64,000 nt of DNA, taken from Anaeromicropila populeti (GTDB lineage: Bacteria > Bacillota > Clostridia > Lachnospirales > Lachnospiraceae). Position numbers and translations under genes: made by a program. The notes below the pieces were generated by a model. The model was given only the letters and a program-made list of their open reading frames with translations. It did not search any database and had not been told where the DNA came from. The stretch covers positions 1-64,000 of the forward strand of contig NZ_FOYZ01000003.1 of NCBI RefSeq assembly GCF_900112775.1, given 5' to 3'. Positions 26,762 to 34,306 of this stretch are shown piece by piece (within the stretch, counting starts at the first letter, position 1; every line of letters begins with the position of its first letter).

Positions 26762-29700
26762 TTATCTTACACTTCTAGTTACATTTACAGTACAGTATAA
26801 TTTCACTCCAGATACTACTGCTACAATTCTTGTTCTTCCTACTTTCCTAGCAATAATATGACCTGCAGATACACTTGCTATACTAGGATTTTCAGAAAAC
26901 CATCTAACTCCTGTTCCAATCTCCTCCACCCACAAATCGGCGGTATCATATTGGGTTAAAGATAAAGAAGAAATATTTAAACCAACTACCGTAACATTAA
27001 CTAACGCATACCTGCCGCTGCTTGTGCGCACTGTAATCGTTGCCACACCTGGCTTTCTGGCTGTAACTCTTCCGCTTGAAGTCACACTTGCAACAGATTT
27101 ATTATCACTGGAAAAATACACTTTATCCGTTGAATTACTTGGTGATATGCTGACAGAAACCATCGCTGCTGTACCTTTAACCATGACCATATCCTTTTGC
27201 GAAACGGAAACACTGGTAGAAGCAACTGCTTTAGAAACATATACCCAGCAAACAGCCTGTTTTCCACTATTATCCTTTGCTTTCGCAGTAATTTTACAAG
27301 ATCCTTCTTTGACAGCAGAAACATTTCCATTTACATCCACCGTTGCAACCTCTTCATCTGAAGTACTCCATTTTACAGTTCGATATGTGGCAGTAGAAGG
27401 TGAAACACTAGCACGTATCTTAGTAGTAGTTCCTACCAACATCCTTAACGTCGTCTTATTTAAAGTAATACTGGTTGCCTGCCTCACTACTCGTATTTTA
27501 CAAGTAGCGTATTCACCACTTCCATCTGTAGCTGCTACCTTAATGGTAATAGTTCCTAGTTTTTTACCTGTTACAACGCCTTTTGAACTTACCGTTGCCA
27601 CTTTAATATTGGAAGAGGTCCATTTTAATTTTTGATTCGTAGCATAGTTTGATTTTATTGTTGCTTTCAGACTCACTGTTTTTCCAATTCCCAATGTATA
27701 ACTGGATTTATTCAAAGTAATGGATGTAACTACCTGTGTTACTGTAACAACACAGTTTGCAACGTATCCACCGTCCTCTGAAATACAGGCTATAACAGTA
27801 ACCCCTCCTCTAATACCCTTTACAACACCACCAGAAGTTACAGTAGCAACTTTCGTATTAGCTGACTGCCATTTCACATTTTTGTTAGATGGATTGGTTG
27901 GTGTGAATACAGGTTTTAACGTAAATGTCTTGCCTTTTACAATTGTTTTTGTTGTATAATTCAAGGTCATCCCTGTGACATCTGCAAAAACTGTAATATA
28001 TAAGTATTCCACTTTACCACTTGCAGTTTTAACAAGAATAATCGTAGAACCAGCAGATACACCGGTAACTTTTCCTGCTTTGGTAACTGTAGCAATAGAC
28101 GGATCCTTTGACGTCCAGGTAAAGGTTGTTTCAGAACTAGTAGCTGGAGATGGGTTAGCAATTACTTGATAAGTATCTCCAATCCCTAATGTTAAATCAT
28201 AAACACTTAACGTAATTCCAGAAGCAGCCTGGGTAACGATTATAGTACAGGTATCAACAGCTCCATCCTCTGTCGTTGCAATAATATGAGTTTTACCACT
28301 TCCTACTGCTGTAACAGTCCCTGTAGAACTTATTGTCGCAATTGACGTGTCAAGTGATTTCCATGTAATACTTGTTGTAGCATTAGATGGATTCAATGTA
28401 TATTCCAGTTTTTGCGATTTTCCGACCTCCAGCGTTACAGATGACTGGGATAAATAGAACCCAGTTGCTGACTGTACAACTGTCATTACACATTGATCCA
28501 TGACAAAATATGGATTATATTCTGGCTGTACTGTAATAATAACAGTACCTGCACTGACTAAAGTAACTAAACCTTGTTCATCTACTGTTGCAACAGCTGT
28601 ATTGGACGAGGTCCATCTCAAATCAGTGCTAGTTGCATCTGTAGGTGTATATGTTGCCTTCAGTCTTACCACTTCACGATTCATTTTAACAGTTGCCTGC
28701 GTCTGGTTAAGATTAATTGTCTTAATCGGTGAAAGCACTGTAATGGTCACACACGCTGTAACAAAGTTATCCTTATTCACCGCAGTCAAGATAACCTTAC
28801 CCGCTTTTTTACCTGTTACAACAACGCTCTTATTATCACTTGCCACAGATAAACTGACTAATTCCTCATCTGAAGATAGCCATTTAATTGGTGCTGTACT
28901 TACATTTGGTGTAAAGGTAGCCAGAATCGTAACTGTTTTGTCTACCTCCAATACTACCTCGTCATAATTCAGTGAAATATTTGTAACTGTATTCACAACT
29001 TTTACAAGACATGTTGCTTTCTTAATATTACCATTTGAAAAAGTCTGGGTAACCGTAATTGTAACATCCTTATTATCTTCTGTTACCTTAATTGCTTTAA
29101 TCAAACCATTCTGTGTTACAGTAACATAATTCTTATCACTTGAAGACCAGGTAAAGGTTCCTCCATAGGACGTATGGCTTTCTACCAACTGTAGTTCAGC
29201 TCCTAAAGCAAGTGTTACACTAGTCCGATCCAGTGATAAACTGTCAATCACATTTATCTTCACTGTATATCCACCCGCTGAAATCGCTGCTTCAGATAAA
29301 TACTGTGCCAGTGAACTATTATTTATTGTAATAATAATATTGGCATCACCTTTTGTTAATGCAGTACCCATAGCTGAGGAAGGCAAATAAGAAAATACAT
29401 TGCTTTCATCTGATGATACATAACTTCCGAAAATTGAAACAAAATCAGAAACAGTTAAGTTAAAGGCATCTGCAACATTGTATCCATCTCCAATATTCAA
29501 AGTAGCTGTTTTATCAGAAAACTCACCATATACAATCAGGTTCATGGATGAATAAAACGTATCACTGATTTCACTTAGTGTTACATTTTGATTTGCTTCA
29601 TAAATTCCTTTTGGAAAAAACTTAATTGTATATTCTCCTGCTTTGGCATTTACCCGAAGTCCGGAACGAGTATCGGATACTACATCTAAGCTAATCAGAT

Positions 29701-30625
29701 CAGAAGTTTTTCCAATAGAGTCTGCAATAATCTGAGAGGAACCATTCACATTCTTTTCTATAATCCATGTAAGCTTATCTTTTATACCCCCACCATTTCG
29801 TTCGTATACAGTATCGGTAAAAATCATTGAGCCTGTATGAAGTTTCAGAGTATTGGATGTATAAAATGTTACGTTATCCTCACTAAACTTGGGAACAACG
29901 TACACATCAATGGAATCTGTCATGGCAGTTGTTTCATTATCTGGTGTATAAGAAGCTCTCAGCGTAGTCTTTCCTGCTCCTATTGCCGTTACAGTACCAC
30001 CATTCAGATTACTTGACGTACTGGTAGTAACTTTAATAATATCTTCATTATCAGAGGTCCATTTACAATTTGTATCCGTGGCATTACCAAAGTTTAACTG
30101 CATATCCTTAACATCATCTACAGACATGATAAGTGCCTCTCGTTCTGCACTGGAAGAAATCTTCTTAAAACTGGTATCCACTGAAGTATCAATGGAAAAG
30201 AGTACTTTAACCTGACAAGTCATACTCTCTACTTCCATCTGGGTTCCAGAAGCATCTGTATAGCTTACTTTAACCGTAATCGTTGCTGTTCCTGGCTTTT
30301 TGGCTGTAACAATAGCAACTGTCTTTTCTGATGAAGTCACATCAATAATCTGCTGTTCAGCGGCAGATGCAACAAACCAGTCAATGGTATATGCACTGTC
30401 ATTGGCATACACTGGATGACCTGGTGAATTAAATAGCAATGTTAATGTTTTCGTTCTCATCACATAAGGATCATTTCCAATTGGTGAATTATTAATAAGA
30501 ATTTCGATATCACTCGATGCAGCATTGGAAAAACCAGAAAATCTTATGGAAAAGACTGCAAAACCAATTAGAAAGATGAGAAACAATCCAATTATATTTT
30601 TTGAAACTATAAATGATTTCTTCAT
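26762..30625 (-). CDS. Giant secreted protein with about 12 Big_2 Ig-like domains
   Basis: The 1287-residue protein starts with a signal peptide (hydrophobic residues about 11-30, cleavage near FSNAASSD). Two divergent N-terminal Ig-like units are followed by about ten tandem Big_2 repeats of 80-90 residues. Each shows a strand such as SITLNKSSYTLGIGKTVSL, then WTSSN.VATV.S.G.VTG and a closing ATC.V.V-type strand. The last repeat, ending CTVNVTRSVR, is degenerate. No LPXTG, SLH or choline-binding anchor is visible, so cell attachment is unclear. AGGAGG precedes the ATG. Similar proteins act in adhesion or as S-layer spacers. A sigma-factor-like gene reads away from it 314 bases upstream. Confidence 0.85.
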   Translation of the reverse strand: MKKSFIVSKNIIGLFLIFLIGFAVFSIRFSGFSNAASSDIEILINNSPIGNDPYVMRTKTLTLLFNSPGHPVYANDSAYTIDWFVASAAEQQIIDVTSSEKTVAIVTAKKPGTATITVKVSYTDASGTQMEVESMTCQVKVLFSIDTSVDTSFKKISSSAEREALIMSVDDVKDMQLNFGNATDTNCKWTSDNEDIIKVTTSTSSNLNGGTVTAIGAGKTTLRASYTPDNETTAMTDSIDVYVVPKFSEDNVTFYTSNTLKLHTGSMIFTDTVYERNGGGIKDKLTWIIEKNVNGSSQIIADSIGKTSDLISLDVVSDTRSGLRVNAKAGEYTIKFFPKGIYEANQNVTLSEISDTFYSSMNLIVYGEFSDKTATLNIGDGYNVADAFNLTVSDFVSIFGSYVSSDESNVFSYLPSSAMGTALTKGDANIIITINNSSLAQYLSEAAISAGGYTVKINVIDSLSLDRTSVTLALGAELQLVESHTSYGGTFTWSSSDKNYVTVTQNGLIKAIKVTEDNKDVTITVTQTFSNGNIKKATCLVKVVNTVTNISLNYDEVVLEVDKTVTILATFTPNVSTAPIKWLSSDEELVSLSVASDNKSVVVTGKKAGKVILTAVNKDNFVTACVTITVLSPIKTINLNQTQATVKMNREVVRLKATYTPTDATSTDLRWTSSNTAVATVDEQGLVTLVSAGTVIITVQPEYNPYFVMDQCVMTVVQSATGFYLSQSSVTLEVGKSQKLEYTLNPSNATTSITWKSLDTSIATISSTGTVTAVGSGKTHIIATTEDGAVDTCTIIVTQAASGITLSVYDLTLGIGDTYQVIANPSPATSSETTFTWTSKDPSIATVTKAGKVTGVSAGSTIILVKTASGKVEYLYITVFADVTGMTLNYTTKTIVKGKTFTLKPVFTPTNPSNKNVKWQSANTKVATVTSGGVVKGIRGGVTVIACISEDGGYVANCVVTVTQVVTSITLNKSSYTLGIGKTVSLKATIKSNYATNQKLKWTSSNIKVATVSSKGVVTGKKLGTITIKVAATDGSGEYATCKIRVVRQATSITLNKTTLRMLVGTTTKIRASVSPSTATYRTVKWSTSDEEVATVDVNGNVSAVKEGSCKITAKAKDNSGKQAVCWVYVSKAVASTSVSVSQKDMVMVKGTAAMVSVSISPSNSTDKVYFSSDNKSVASVTSSGRVTARKPGVATITVRTSSGRYALVNVTVVGLNISSLSLTQYDTADLWVEEIGTGVRWFSENPSIASVSAGHIIARKVGRTRIVAVVSGVKLYCTVNVTRSVR

Positions 30626-30939: not shown

Positions 30940-32232
30940 ATGTCGAATCAGTTTGATTTAGACGGAAGTATACAATATGCCGTTAACAATTATTCTAAAT
31001 ATTTATTAAAAGTTGCCTTTATCTACACTAAAAATGCGATGGATTCTGAACGAATTGTTCGGGAAGTCTTTTTATCTTATTTGAACAAACGACCACTATT
31101 TGAGAACTCCAGACATGAAAAAATTTGGCTCACACAAATTACAATACAGAAAAGCAAGTTTTTTTTACTAACACATTTTTTTATTCGACCTAATATTTTT
31201 TCTTCTTTTGGAAATTCACTATCGAAAGAAGAAGGCTTTTTACTTGATACCTTTTTTCAGTTAAAAGCATTTTATAGAATTCTTTTACACCTTTATTATA
31301 GTGAAAAAAGCAGTACTGAAGATTTGGCTGGTATTTTTGGCCTGCGTACTGATACAATTGAAAAATTACTGACTCATTCCATGCAGACATTAAAAACACA
31401 GTTTGGTGAAATTGAGATTGAAGTAAGCACATTTGTTCATATACAAGATTGTATTCGTTTTACAAAGAAATACAGTCAAACTACTTTATCCTATTTAGCT
31501 GATGCAATTGCCTATAATGCCGCTGCAAAAAAGCAGTTTTCATTTAAAAAAAGACTTATTATTTTTAGTTCACTATTCATTATTTTTTTTGGCTGCTCTA
31601 TTTTTTTATATAAAAAACATAACAAGGAACGCCCATCGGATATTATCCTTATAAATTCTTCTGCAAATGTTAAAGTCTTTTATCTTTCCGATGATGAAAA
31701 AATATATGATGAAGATTATATGTCAGATTCTTCTTTGCATTGGCTTAGTGAAACTGATATTTTTACAAGATATAATACCTCCATTTTGAAAGGATATATC
31801 CAGGATATTCAAAATATAGAAATTGTAATGGGCAGAGGCAATTCATTTTACAAGGCCATTGCGACGATTCGTGTGGACAAGGTATATCGCGGCAAAGAAA
31901 CGGTAGGCAGTCCCATTAGAATTTTACTGAATTTCCCAATACAATCTTCTTCTGATGAAAAAAATATTTTTTCACAATTAAGAGAAGGCTATGAAGGTAT
32001 TTTTATGCCAGTAAAATTTGATGATAATGATTACCGTAAGGAAAACCAGGCCACTTTATATATGCGAGATTTGGCTGAATATTATTTTATCGATAGTCAC
32101 TTTCTGTTTTTTCAGACCGATACTGAACTGGTTTACATAGATTCTGTTTTTTCCATTGATGGTGAACCAAGTTCTTTGGATGAAATTGAAGCTTATATTT
32201 TGAAAATGCTTAAAAATATTAAATATAATTGA
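30940..32232 (+). CDS. Membrane-tethered ECF-sigma-like protein with outer domain
   Basis: The 430-residue protein starts like an ECF sigma factor. DSERIVREVFLSYLNK (35-50) and EKIWLTQITIQKSK (60-73) match region 2, in degenerate form. SSTEDLAGIFGLRTDTIEKL (124-143) matches the region 4 helix-turn-helix. A helical linker (161-200) leads to one membrane helix (about 205-224) with flanking basic residues, then a roughly 205-residue domain predicted outside the cell, rich in beta strands. AAGGGG precedes the ATG. Known fused ECF groups exist, but this layout in a clostridium is unfamiliar to me. Region 2 may be too divergent to bind core polymerase, so it could instead be a DNA-binding signalling protein. 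Confidence 0.6.
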   Translation: MSNQFDLDGSIQYAVNNYSKYLLKVAFIYTKNAMDSERIVREVFLSYLNKRPLFENSRHEKIWLTQITIQKSKFFLLTHFFIRPNIFSSFGNSLSKEEGFLLDTFFQLKAFYRILLHLYYSEKSSTEDLAGIFGLRTDTIEKLLTHSMQTLKTQFGEIEIEVSTFVHIQDCIRFTKKYSQTTLSYLADAIAYNAAAKKQFSFKKRLIIFSSLFIIFFGCSIFLYKKHNKERPSDIILINSSANVKVFYLSDDEKIYDEDYMSDSSLHWLSETDIFTRYNTSILKGYIQDIQNIEIVMGRGNSFYKAIATIRVDKVYRGKETVGSPIRILLNFPIQSSSDEKNIFSQLREGYEGIFMPVKFDDNDYRKENQATLYMRDLAEYYFIDSHFLFFQTDTELVYIDSVFSIDGEPSSLDEIEAYILKMLKNIKYN

Positions 32233-32312: not shown

Positions 32313-32876
32313 TCAATTGAGCGTTTTTAATTCATTTGGATTGTATAGACAGCTAAAATCAGTTGGAACTATAATAATTCCTGCCTTTTCATATTTAATC
32401 CCATCTGACTGATCATGCCAACAACTTAGAAGCTTTTCGTTAGAAATGTAAGTATAATTCCCCAGTATAGAAGGATCCATACATATAATATTATACTTAT
32501 CGTATCCACAGGCAACTACATAATGTCCGTCTTCCCACGTCTGTTCATAACTTTCTTTCTCTCCCCACGCTTGAATCATCAGAATGACTGGCAAATTAAG
32601 AGAAAGATATTCCTTGATACAATCAATTTTTAAATTAAGTAATAATTCTCCTGTTGCATTTATTGATTCTGCAAACTTAATAATTTCCTCAACCTTTGTT
32701 CCTCTTTGAGGGTTTGATTTCAGGTTTTCTTCCAATATATCCTGTCTGTAGTCTATACAGTAGTAACCTAACACCGACTGCACAGCTGCCACCCCACAAG
32801 TATATGCTGTTCCCTGACGGCATAAAGGAACGTGTATCATACAGATATCCTTACTAATCAAATTACATTTTTTCAT
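32313..32876 (-). CDS. Stand-alone C39-type cysteine peptidase-like protein
   Basis: The 187-residue protein has the papain-like C39 pattern: Cys27 in AYTCGVAAVQSVLGYY, His118 in EDGHYVVACGYD and Asp134 in CMDPS. The family cleaves double-glycine leaders when fused to bacteriocin exporters; here no ABC transporter part is present and none lies nearby. It lacks a signal peptide and so is probably cytoplasmic, and may process or bind another peptide. The start is placed at MKKCNLISK because GAGG then lies six bases upstream; an ATG four codons earlier would overlap that site. It converges on the sigma-like gene. Confidence 0.7.
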   Translation of the reverse strand: MKKCNLISKDICMIHVPLCRQGTAYTCGVAAVQSVLGYYCIDYRQDILEENLKSNPQRGTKVEEIIKFAESINATGELLLNLKIDCIKEYLSLNLPVILMIQAWGEKESYEQTWEDGHYVVACGYDKYNIICMDPSILGNYTYISNEKLLSCWHDQSDGIKYEKAGIIIVPTDFSCLYNPNELKTLN

Positions 32877-33019
32877 TCTGCGCCTCATATTAAAATGGAT
32901 TCAAGAATTTTCCTTGTATCCTATCTTATGAGGATGTAGGAGAACATGTTACATATCGGACTCATAATAAATAGCATACCAACTTAATTTCTAACTTTTT
33001 CCTTCTTTAATCAAGTGCT

Positions 33020-34306
33020 TTAATAAAGAATTTTTTCTATCTCATATTGTGAAGAAATTATTAACCAAAGCTGTGGATTAAATACCCTGATATTCCATAC
33101 ACTAATACCACTTAAATTATATTTGGACACTAATTCCATTGTTGCATTGATACTTCTAGAATTAATATACCATACTACATGTTCGAGGTTATTTCCAAAT
33201 GTATATCTAAAATAAGGTGTTTGTGATACCTCATCATAATTTATAACTGCTCCAGCACTTCTAGCTAAATCAATAACTCCTTCAAAAGATAAGCTATTTA
33301 CATTAGAAATTTTAGGTGCATACGGCAGCTCCCAATCATATCCAATCGTTGCTATTCCTATAATTATTTTATCTGGTGGTATATAGTTTAATATATAATT
33401 TATAAAATTTTCCATGCTATAAAAAGAACTAATAGGTGATGGCGCCATTATTCGTTCAGCCCATTCATATGTCGTAAATATAATATTTTGAGCTGATTGA
33501 TTTAATCTTGTATAATCGACTTTTTCAAAAAACACTTCATTATTAACTAATGATACATTGGGATTTACGTTTAAAAAAACTTGGTATCCTTCTTCACTTA
33601 AGCGATTTGTAATTTTAGTTAAGTAGTTTTCATAGAAATGCAGATTTGATATATTGATATATTGAAAAGATATATTTATACCATAATAACCTTTCGTTTC
33701 AATTATTCTTAATATATTATCAATAATTCTATTTTGAAAATCTTCATTCAGAAGTATATCAAATGTAGTAAGAATGTTTGCTTCTCCTTGTAAAGTTGCA
33801 GTTGTTAGCATCATAAGTGGAGCCACCCCATAATCTTTAGCAATTTGAATTACTTCATTATCATCATAATAGGTGATAATCTCTCCCTCCTTTGTAGCAG
33901 TAAAATTTAGTACCGATAAATACGTTAAATACGGTAAAGTTTTTCTAAGTATATCCTTATTTATATTGGGATCTGTATTACCATGCGTAATGATTTTACC
34001 CTTATCAGTATTATATGATATGATAATAGTATCACCTGGGTAAATGTATTCTCTATCAGAGAGTTCTGGGTTATTTGCTAATATCTGGATTATAGAAACA
34101 TTAAATTTATTAGCTATATCCAATAAAGTATCACCTTGTTTTATAGTATAGACTTGTTGAGGATGTGCGATTACCAACGTCTGACCGATTATTAGGTAAT
34201 CTGTCTCCTCAAGCCCATTATCTTGAATTAATTTTTGTACGGAAAATCCGAATTTATCTGCAATTGATTGAAGAGTATCTCCCTGTTTAACAACATATAT
34301 TTCCAT
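33020..34306 (-). CDS. LysM-GH18 protein, SleL/YaaH-like, catalytic residues lost
   Basis: The 428-residue protein has two LysM domains (about 2-46 and 51-97) that bind peptidoglycan. A GH18 barrel follows (about 105-428) as in spore cortex-lytic SleL/YaaH. The family catalytic motif, normally D-x-D-x-E, reads GYYGINISFQ (206-215): Ser213 stands for the Asp and Gln215 for the acid Glu. Both codons were checked on the DNA (TCT and CAA). It probably binds cortex without cutting it. AGGGG precedes the ATG and a sigma-E-like promoter lies just upstream. No signal peptide, as usual for spore-deposited members. Confidence 0.8.
   Translation of the reverse strand: MEIYVVKQGDTLQSIADKFGFSVQKLIQDNGLEETDYLIIGQTLVIAHPQQVYTIKQGDTLLDIANKFNVSIIQILANNPELSDREYIYPGDTIIISYNTDKGKIITHGNTDPNINKDILRKTLPYLTYLSVLNFTATKEGEIITYYDDNEVIQIAKDYGVAPLMMLTTATLQGEANILTTFDILLNEDFQNRIIDNILRIIETKGYYGINISFQYINISNLHFYENYLTKITNRLSEEGYQVFLNVNPNVSLVNNEVFFEKVDYTRLNQSAQNIIFTTYEWAERIMAPSPISSFYSMENFINYILNYIPPDKIIIGIATIGYDWELPYAPKISNVNSLSFEGVIDLARSAGAVINYDEVSQTPYFRYTFGNNLEHVVWYINSRSINATMELVSKYNLSGISVWNIRVFNPQLWLIISSQYEIEKILY

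Follow-up and report, generated by a model that had tools for sequence, protein, structure and literature searches.

In IutY of Pseudomonas putida (group ECF243), a sigma factor and its anti-sigma factor form one polypeptide, according to the available portions of two reports (PMC5411451, PMC8999054). The latter, a review, describes or expects one-chain proteins also in groups ECF48, ECF52, ECF53 and some of ECF36, in the sections at hand (PMC8999054). PhyR, as described in the accessible part of a third report, has an ECF fold whose polymerase and promoter surfaces are degenerate (PMC8103513).

The stretch analysed here, referred to as the window, comprises 64,000 nucleotides of DNA from Anaeromicropila populeti, a member of the Lachnospiraceae. 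An earlier note on this DNA had described one of its genes as combining a sigma-like part, one membrane helix and an outer domain in a single chain, and profile, fold and hydropathy agree on this layout. The reading frame opens with an ATG at 30940 on the + strand, closes with a stop ending at 32232 and encodes 430 amino acids without an internal stop. The ECF-sigma-like part spans residues ~10-157, the hydrophobic helix residues 206-224 and the outer domain residues ~228-430. The features are listed below in window coordinates; places in other genomes are cited by locus number (L).

30940..32232, + strand: whole fused gene, 430 codons plus stop (open reading frame; codon usage of both halves best in their own frame)
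30967..31179, + strand: degenerate sigma region 2, residues ~10-80 (NCBIfam; PF04542 below cut-off; D38R, Q41R, R66Q and N70Q relative to 50 relatives; fold match)
31225..31410, + strand: degenerate sigma region 4, residues ~96-157 (best TIGR02937 stretch 107-154; R146H, R148M; few basic residues in the recognition helix)
31411..31422, + strand: fusion point (sigma stop, Shine-Dalgarno sequence and anti-sigma start of the unfused operon absent, compared with L066, L058 and L057)
31423..31539, + strand: putative cytoplasmic anti-sigma-like segment, residues ~162-200 (aligns with the N-termini of the separate L066 and L058 proteins)
31555..31611, + strand: single hydrophobic helix, residues 206-224, taken as membrane-spanning (hydropathy; model helix 202-227)
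31621..32229, + strand: outer domain, residues ~228-430, with a suggested NTR/TIMP-like beta fold (homologues; model and fold comparison; constraint; family scans)

Gene, layout and predicted folds

Synonymous codon usage in both halves of the gene lies about 0.08 bits per codon above base composition, with lower values in the other two frames. Ten other genes of the window score 0.07-0.15 bits per codon, nine of them having defined the reference. Hydropathy detects a single segment in the protein, residues 206-224 (mean 2.44). The earlier note had let its proposal hang on whether this segment is membrane-like, and the proposal came through. A count of the charges flanking the helix leaves the orientation undecided; from the unfused family described below we infer that the sigma-like part and the anti-sigma segment would be cytosolic and that the outer domain would lie outside.

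Three neighbouring genes lie on the - strand. The one at 26762-30625 (-), divergent from the fused gene, encodes a large protein (1287 aa) that looks secreted and contains 11 Big_2 stretches. A protein of 191 aa with a C39-like peptidase domain is encoded at 32313-32888 (-), the transporter part being absent from the frame, and a LysM-LysM-GH18 protein at 33020-34306 (-), whose best NCBIfam match, a spore coat assembly LysM model, is below cut-off. Two ECF-type promoter patterns were sought upstream of the fused gene and of the Big_2 gene. Neither was found; since both are equally absent before 20 of 20 relatives, the result is uninformative as to autoregulation.

The best NCBIfam match of the N-terminal part is PRK09415 (sigma C), with E 1.9e-13 but below the curated cut-off. 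TIGR02937 also stays below its cut-off (E 2.8e-5, 23.8 bits; cut-off 42.9), and Pfam detects region 2 alone (PF04542, E 0.026, 14.8 bits; cut-off 24), with no Pfam match for region 4 up to E 10. The sigma factor of Paenibacillus agilis (L066) is over both cut-offs, scoring 48.8 bits with PF04542 and 61.1 bits with TIGR02937. A search of the window's own genome returned 19 sigma region 2 matches, the fused protein being the sole one under the Pfam cut-off (PF04542, 17.9 bits; cut-off 24). A PDB sequence search with the sigma part gave no useful match (best E 0.068, to a repeat protein; SigL chain 6dv9 at E 1.2). The whole chain was modelled with AlphaFold2 (mean pLDDT 79, pTM 0.51) from an alignment that included intact relatives, which may flatter the ECF fold, and that omitted the anti-sigma N-termini; the cytoplasmic anti-sigma-like segment is modelled with low confidence. 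Residues 3-159 of the model match RpoE (5uxx_C, Z 15.1) and SigW (5wuq_A, Z 14.4, rmsd 3.0, 142 aligned), and the structure comparison relates the sigma part to the anti-sigma-bound form of both. The sigma fold that the earlier note expected over residues 1-160 is thus present by HMM search (PRK09415) and in the predicted structure, with sigma2 and sigma4 domains found within about 160 residues by NCBIfam, model and fold match.

No Pfam or NCBIfam family matches the outer domain over cut-off. Weak Pfam matches to Bflower_3 (E 0.019) and Pre-PUA (E 0.036) were dropped, being common to 0 of 10 other members scanned. A PDB sequence search with the outer family returned a single entry, 7ue2 (E 6e-6), which matches the N-terminal helical stretch only and which, going by its name, we take to be a designed repeat protein. 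Modelled alone, the domain reaches a mean pLDDT of 85, and fold comparison places it closest to agrin NtA (1pxu; Z 9.2, rmsd 3.4, 120 aligned, 14% identity), with further matches to PCOLCE NTR (1uap, Z 9.1) and TIMP-1 (3ma2_C, Z 7.6). The 50 fold entries listed span Z 6.7-9.2, and the best Foldseek E-value is 3.2e-3. These middling matches to the predicted structure suggest that the outer domain may be NTR/TIMP-like, a fold characterized by an OB-like barrel and a terminal helix, and serve as a binding domain.

Unfused operons and the fusion junction

By homology, the C-terminal 270 residues are an anti-sigma-like membrane protein of a kind encoded right after an ECF sigma gene in many Bacillota. 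They comprise a short cytosolic segment, one helix and a homologous outer domain, in a family usually encoded beside an ECF sigma gene; gene order and layout suggest that the members of this family would bind their sigma factors. With residues 155-430 as query, matches at E ≤0.001 were obtained in 12 other genomes among 397 of the same family. An ECF sigma gene lies directly upstream at 8 of the 11 of these places that have flanks; a remnant is found at one (L047), none at another (L051), and the last (L055) has no homologous ORF. The match in one of the 12 genomes (G344, E 8.7e-4) was dropped as a homologue locus, no ORF bearing it out. A scan of named genomes with a tighter family alignment yielded 23 loci, at least 6 of which are the same places as in the family search. 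The upstream gene has a Pfam sigma match at E ≤0.01 at 15 of the 23 (region 4 only at L071). An ECF frame was recognized by eye at L061 and L067, a wrecked remnant lies at L060 and L062, none is found directly upstream at L077, and the upstream gene could not be judged at L075, L076 and L079. Scanning the genome contigs with the window protein alone as query returned no relative.

The outer domain is found without an ECF gene directly upstream (L051, L142, L143) and survives beside ruined sigma genes (L060, L062), and separate use of the outer domain is therefore supported. At L051 (5091-5693, + strand), where the domain lacks an ECF neighbour, the flanks look by eye like a fatty-acid synthesis cluster. 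At L062 (2984-3820, + strand), about 26 N-terminal residues of an ECF sigma factor continue in frame with the anti-sigma-like protein, an arrangement that by eye results from a deletion.

Sigma and anti-sigma homologues adjoin as separate genes in P. agilis (L066), Caldicoprobacter oshimai (L058) and L. phytofermentans (L057, identical to L046). The sigma factor nearest to that of the window is from P. agilis (40% over 156), with C. oshimai at 38% over 142. The three best matches of the C-terminal half are L058 (36% over 261), its near copy L059, and L066 (32% over 254). The L. phytofermentans pair is more distant (27% in the sigma, 32% in the anti-sigma part), and its sigma lies elsewhere in the tree. 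The end branch of the window is the longest in the sigma tree (1.57; median 0.55; neighbouring P. agilis 0.22). The grouping of the window with P. agilis has support of 93/87, below the starred level, and with so long a branch the placement is unsure. The tree of the anti-sigma half, in which long branches meet without resolution, was set aside, and only the sigma tree was used.

In L066 the end of the sigma gene and the second start lie within a few bases of each other, with GGAGG ahead of the second start. In the fused gene, both partners of such an operon lie in one reading frame. The cytosolic segment of the separate proteins aligns to residues 159-200 of the fusion, so the anti-sigma protein is nearly whole. 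Going upstream from codon 260, the first in-frame ATG, GTG or TTG to be met is codon 148, which belongs to the sigma part and has no Shine-Dalgarno-like stretch ahead of it. As far as aligned sequences go, comparison with these operons shows the gene to be an in-frame fusion of a two-gene operon, made of an ECF sigma gene and the membrane anti-sigma gene following it. This origin from neighbouring genes had been missed in the earlier note, whose layout and doubt about sigma activity both stand.

A homologous fusion was not seen elsewhere among the matches listed in full-protein searches of 61 genomes around the window's own (28 with a match), 397 of the family (151), 391 of the class (65) and 398 of the phylum (15); these sets overlap, each counts the own genome, E limits differ, and at most four candidates per genome were scored in the three large ones. 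Window aside, the sigma-side rows among the matches listed in the family search have open frames of at most 272 residues. A frame of 440 residues in the search of 61 genomes (G039) was rejected: it consists of two genes with a stop between them, and by eye its outer part belongs to another family. The class search produced one sigma-side row with a long unbroken frame (475; L139), which is a different fusion. L139 (1135-2538, - strand) is an independent ECF fusion from the same class, with a frame of 467 residues, a C-terminal part of ~300 residues, sigma regions 2 and 4 both intact (Pfam 4e-13 and 8e-15) and no membrane helix by hydropathy. At L026 (856-2133, - strand), an ECF sigma factor and a membrane partner share a frame with one stop between them, a near-fused layout with another outer part. 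The earlier remark that this layout is unfamiliar from Clostridia goes uncontradicted, and among the open-licence papers listed in literature searches none was evident that deals with such a fusion in Clostridia; the remark is narrowed by the one-chain proteins known elsewhere, as the accessible part of the review reports (PMC8999054).

Wear of the sigma half and constraint on the outer domain

The sigma half was compared with 50 standalone relatives (51 before a 90% filter, from 59 BLAST rows) picked by likeness to the window. It is off consensus at 17 of 34 conserved columns, where the relatives have a median of 4 and a maximum of 9. Near-invariant ECF residues have been replaced: D38R and Q41R (D and Q each kept in 48 of 50 relatives), N70Q (N in 50 of 50), R146H (R kept in 49 of 50) and R148M (R in 45, K in the other 5). 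We take these five positions to be near-invariant ones of regions 2.2, 2.4 and 4.2, with presumed roles in contacting core polymerase and both promoter elements (-10 and -35). In the recognition helix the net charge is 0 and K+R number 2; all 50 relatives have +2 to +6 with at least 3 K+R. Region 2 had been thought weaker than region 4, which does not hold: both are degenerate, and damage to the recognition helix of region 4 equals that to region 2. The doubt that the earlier note cast on true sigma activity was well placed. Its alternative of a tethered DNA-binding regulator is disfavoured because of the charge and the two basic residues of the recognition helix. On the other side, the whole sigma half has a charge of +5, more basic than 47 of the 50 relatives, while the charge of region 2.3-2.4 equals their median; judging by charge, a loose contact with DNA may still occur.

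Changes were then counted at columns where a stand-in for the ancestor has the consensus residue, L066, a distant proxy, being the main stand-in and L058 the second. Against L066, replacements in the window sigma number 14 among 31 conserved columns and 23 among 51 variable ones (p = 1.0); against L058 they number 17 among 33 and 32 among 59 (p = 0.83). For six control relatives set against L066, the corresponding numbers are 0-2 among 31-32 conserved columns and 14-23 among 50-52 variable ones. In the outer domain, 14 of 48 conserved columns and 29 of 44 variable ones carry a change against L066 (p = 0.0007), as do 15 of 49 and 39 of 60 against L058 (p = 0.0005). For the one fusion sequence on which these statistics rest, they show constraint to be gone from the sigma half and still present on the outer domain, as far as residue changes can indicate.

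Relative-rate counts against L058 are 42 to 10 for the sigma half and 58 to 34 for the anti-sigma half, and the C-terminal half is off consensus at 26 of 67 conserved columns. By these counts both halves are fast-changing, the sigma half more so. Sigma columns conserved at ≥90% have changed somewhat less (5 of 15). Hydrophobic positions of the sigma half are kept at 54 of 68, a figure matched by 13 to 40 of 300 neutral runs at similar identity. Some constraint on the sigma fold may be left. When 50% of residues were changed in a simulation, 1 of 1000 sigma halves stayed free of stops, and frame-blind, unconstrained decay of the sigma half was rejected; the simulation ignores indels.

Possible roles and comparison with known systems

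We think it probable that operon fusion has produced a one-chain anchored membrane protein in which the outer domain has been kept and the sigma half is a passenger, probably without sigma activity. As sequence comparison shows, an ECF sigma gene has fused in frame with the membrane anti-sigma gene behind it. Since then, residues presumed to contact core polymerase and both promoter elements (-10 and -35) have been replaced in the sigma half, where, by the statistics on this one sequence, conserved and variable columns now change with equal freedom; the outer domain has stayed under constraint. The downstream part lacks an independent start, so that a stop within the sigma half would presumably also destroy the outer domain, which would explain an open frame despite sigma decay. 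In the working protein, the outer domain would then carry the function, and the cytosolic end would be a pseudo-sigma that folds but is inactive in transcription.

A working one-chain system of the IutY/ECF52 type, in which an outer signal and two-step proteolysis free an active sigma factor with altered promoter taste, would have the same order of parts, and such fusions are known, in the available portions of the reports (PMC8999054, PMC5411451). The genome carries a site-2 protease gene (PF02163 over cut-off, 388-aa frame), and the fold of both sigma domains is predicted; yet N70 (50 of 50 relatives), Q41 and D38 (48 of 50 each) are replaced, the recognition helix is poor in basic residues and the conserved columns are unconstrained. 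An active, proteolytically released sigma factor is thus possible but less likely, and we regard such a system as unlikely.

Alternatively, by analogy with PhyR and NepR, the dead sigma half could act as a membrane-anchored mimic that binds another anti-sigma factor and frees that factor's sigma. Such a mimic, with no contact to polymerase or DNA, would show or hide a decoy sigma surface at the membrane under the control of the NTR-like outer domain. PhyR too has an ECF fold with degenerate surfaces, in the accessible part of its description (PMC8103513), the fold matches include PhyR chains (4qic_A, Z 12.1), and the genome has 18 further sigma region 2 matches, among them housekeeping sigmas. 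A binding surface should stay, however, yet the conserved columns change as freely as the variable ones, and the protein's own anti-sigma segment sits in cis; we consider both the mimicry and this mode of control rather improbable.

That the whole gene is functionless and decaying would fit the acceleration of both halves and the wrecked relatives of such operons (L060, L062), but 430 codons are open, both halves have codon usage like that of other genes in the window, and the outer domain is still constrained, which makes this reading quite improbable. An assembly or sequencing error joining two separate genes is very improbable: the genome is a draft in 44 contigs, AT-rich with homopolymer runs, but stop, ribosome site and start are all absent, which is beyond one wrong base or indel, and the sole start close to the junction from which the anti-sigma frame could be read, codon 148, lies in the sigma part with no Shine-Dalgarno-like stretch.

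The locus is a natural case of a sigma/anti-sigma operon collapsed to one gene, with the unfused state visible in relatives, and shows a possible fate of a fused sigma half, whose constraint is lost although the outer domain persists. This pattern suggests that the outer domain of an anti-sigma protein of this kind can serve a function by itself. The locus further draws attention to an outer-domain family, as yet without a name, that is spread across several Bacillota families.

Among known systems, IutY resembles the fused protein in joining a cytosolic ECF sigma factor to a membrane anti-sigma factor with an outer domain (PMC5411451, PMC8999054). It differs, in the portions of these reports at hand, in that its sigma is active, is set free through Prc and RseP and acts together with an outer-membrane receptor; the fused protein has lost sigma residues, belongs to a Lachnospiraceae host and has an outer domain of no named family. 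ECF52 (SCO4117), ECF53 and ECF48 of Actinobacteria likewise have one or more C-terminal membrane helices on an ECF sigma factor, and ECF52 has an outer domain too, according to what is available of two sources (PMC8999054, PMC5826349). ECF52 differs in its zinc finger and carbohydrate-binding module, neither of which has a Pfam match in the fused protein up to E 10, and is described there as exclusive to Actinobacteria (PMC8999054, PMC5826349). PhyR shares with the fused protein an ECF fold with degenerate surfaces, as the accessible part of its description has it (PMC8103513), but is a response regulator, and its receiver domain has no Pfam match in the fused protein. The two-gene operons L066, L058 and L057 of Bacillota are homologous in both halves and have the same order, but consist of two genes with overlapping ends and retain intact sigma residues. 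The kind of protein is thus already known; what is new here is its host, its outer domain, the worn state of its sigma half and an unfused parent operon that can still be seen.
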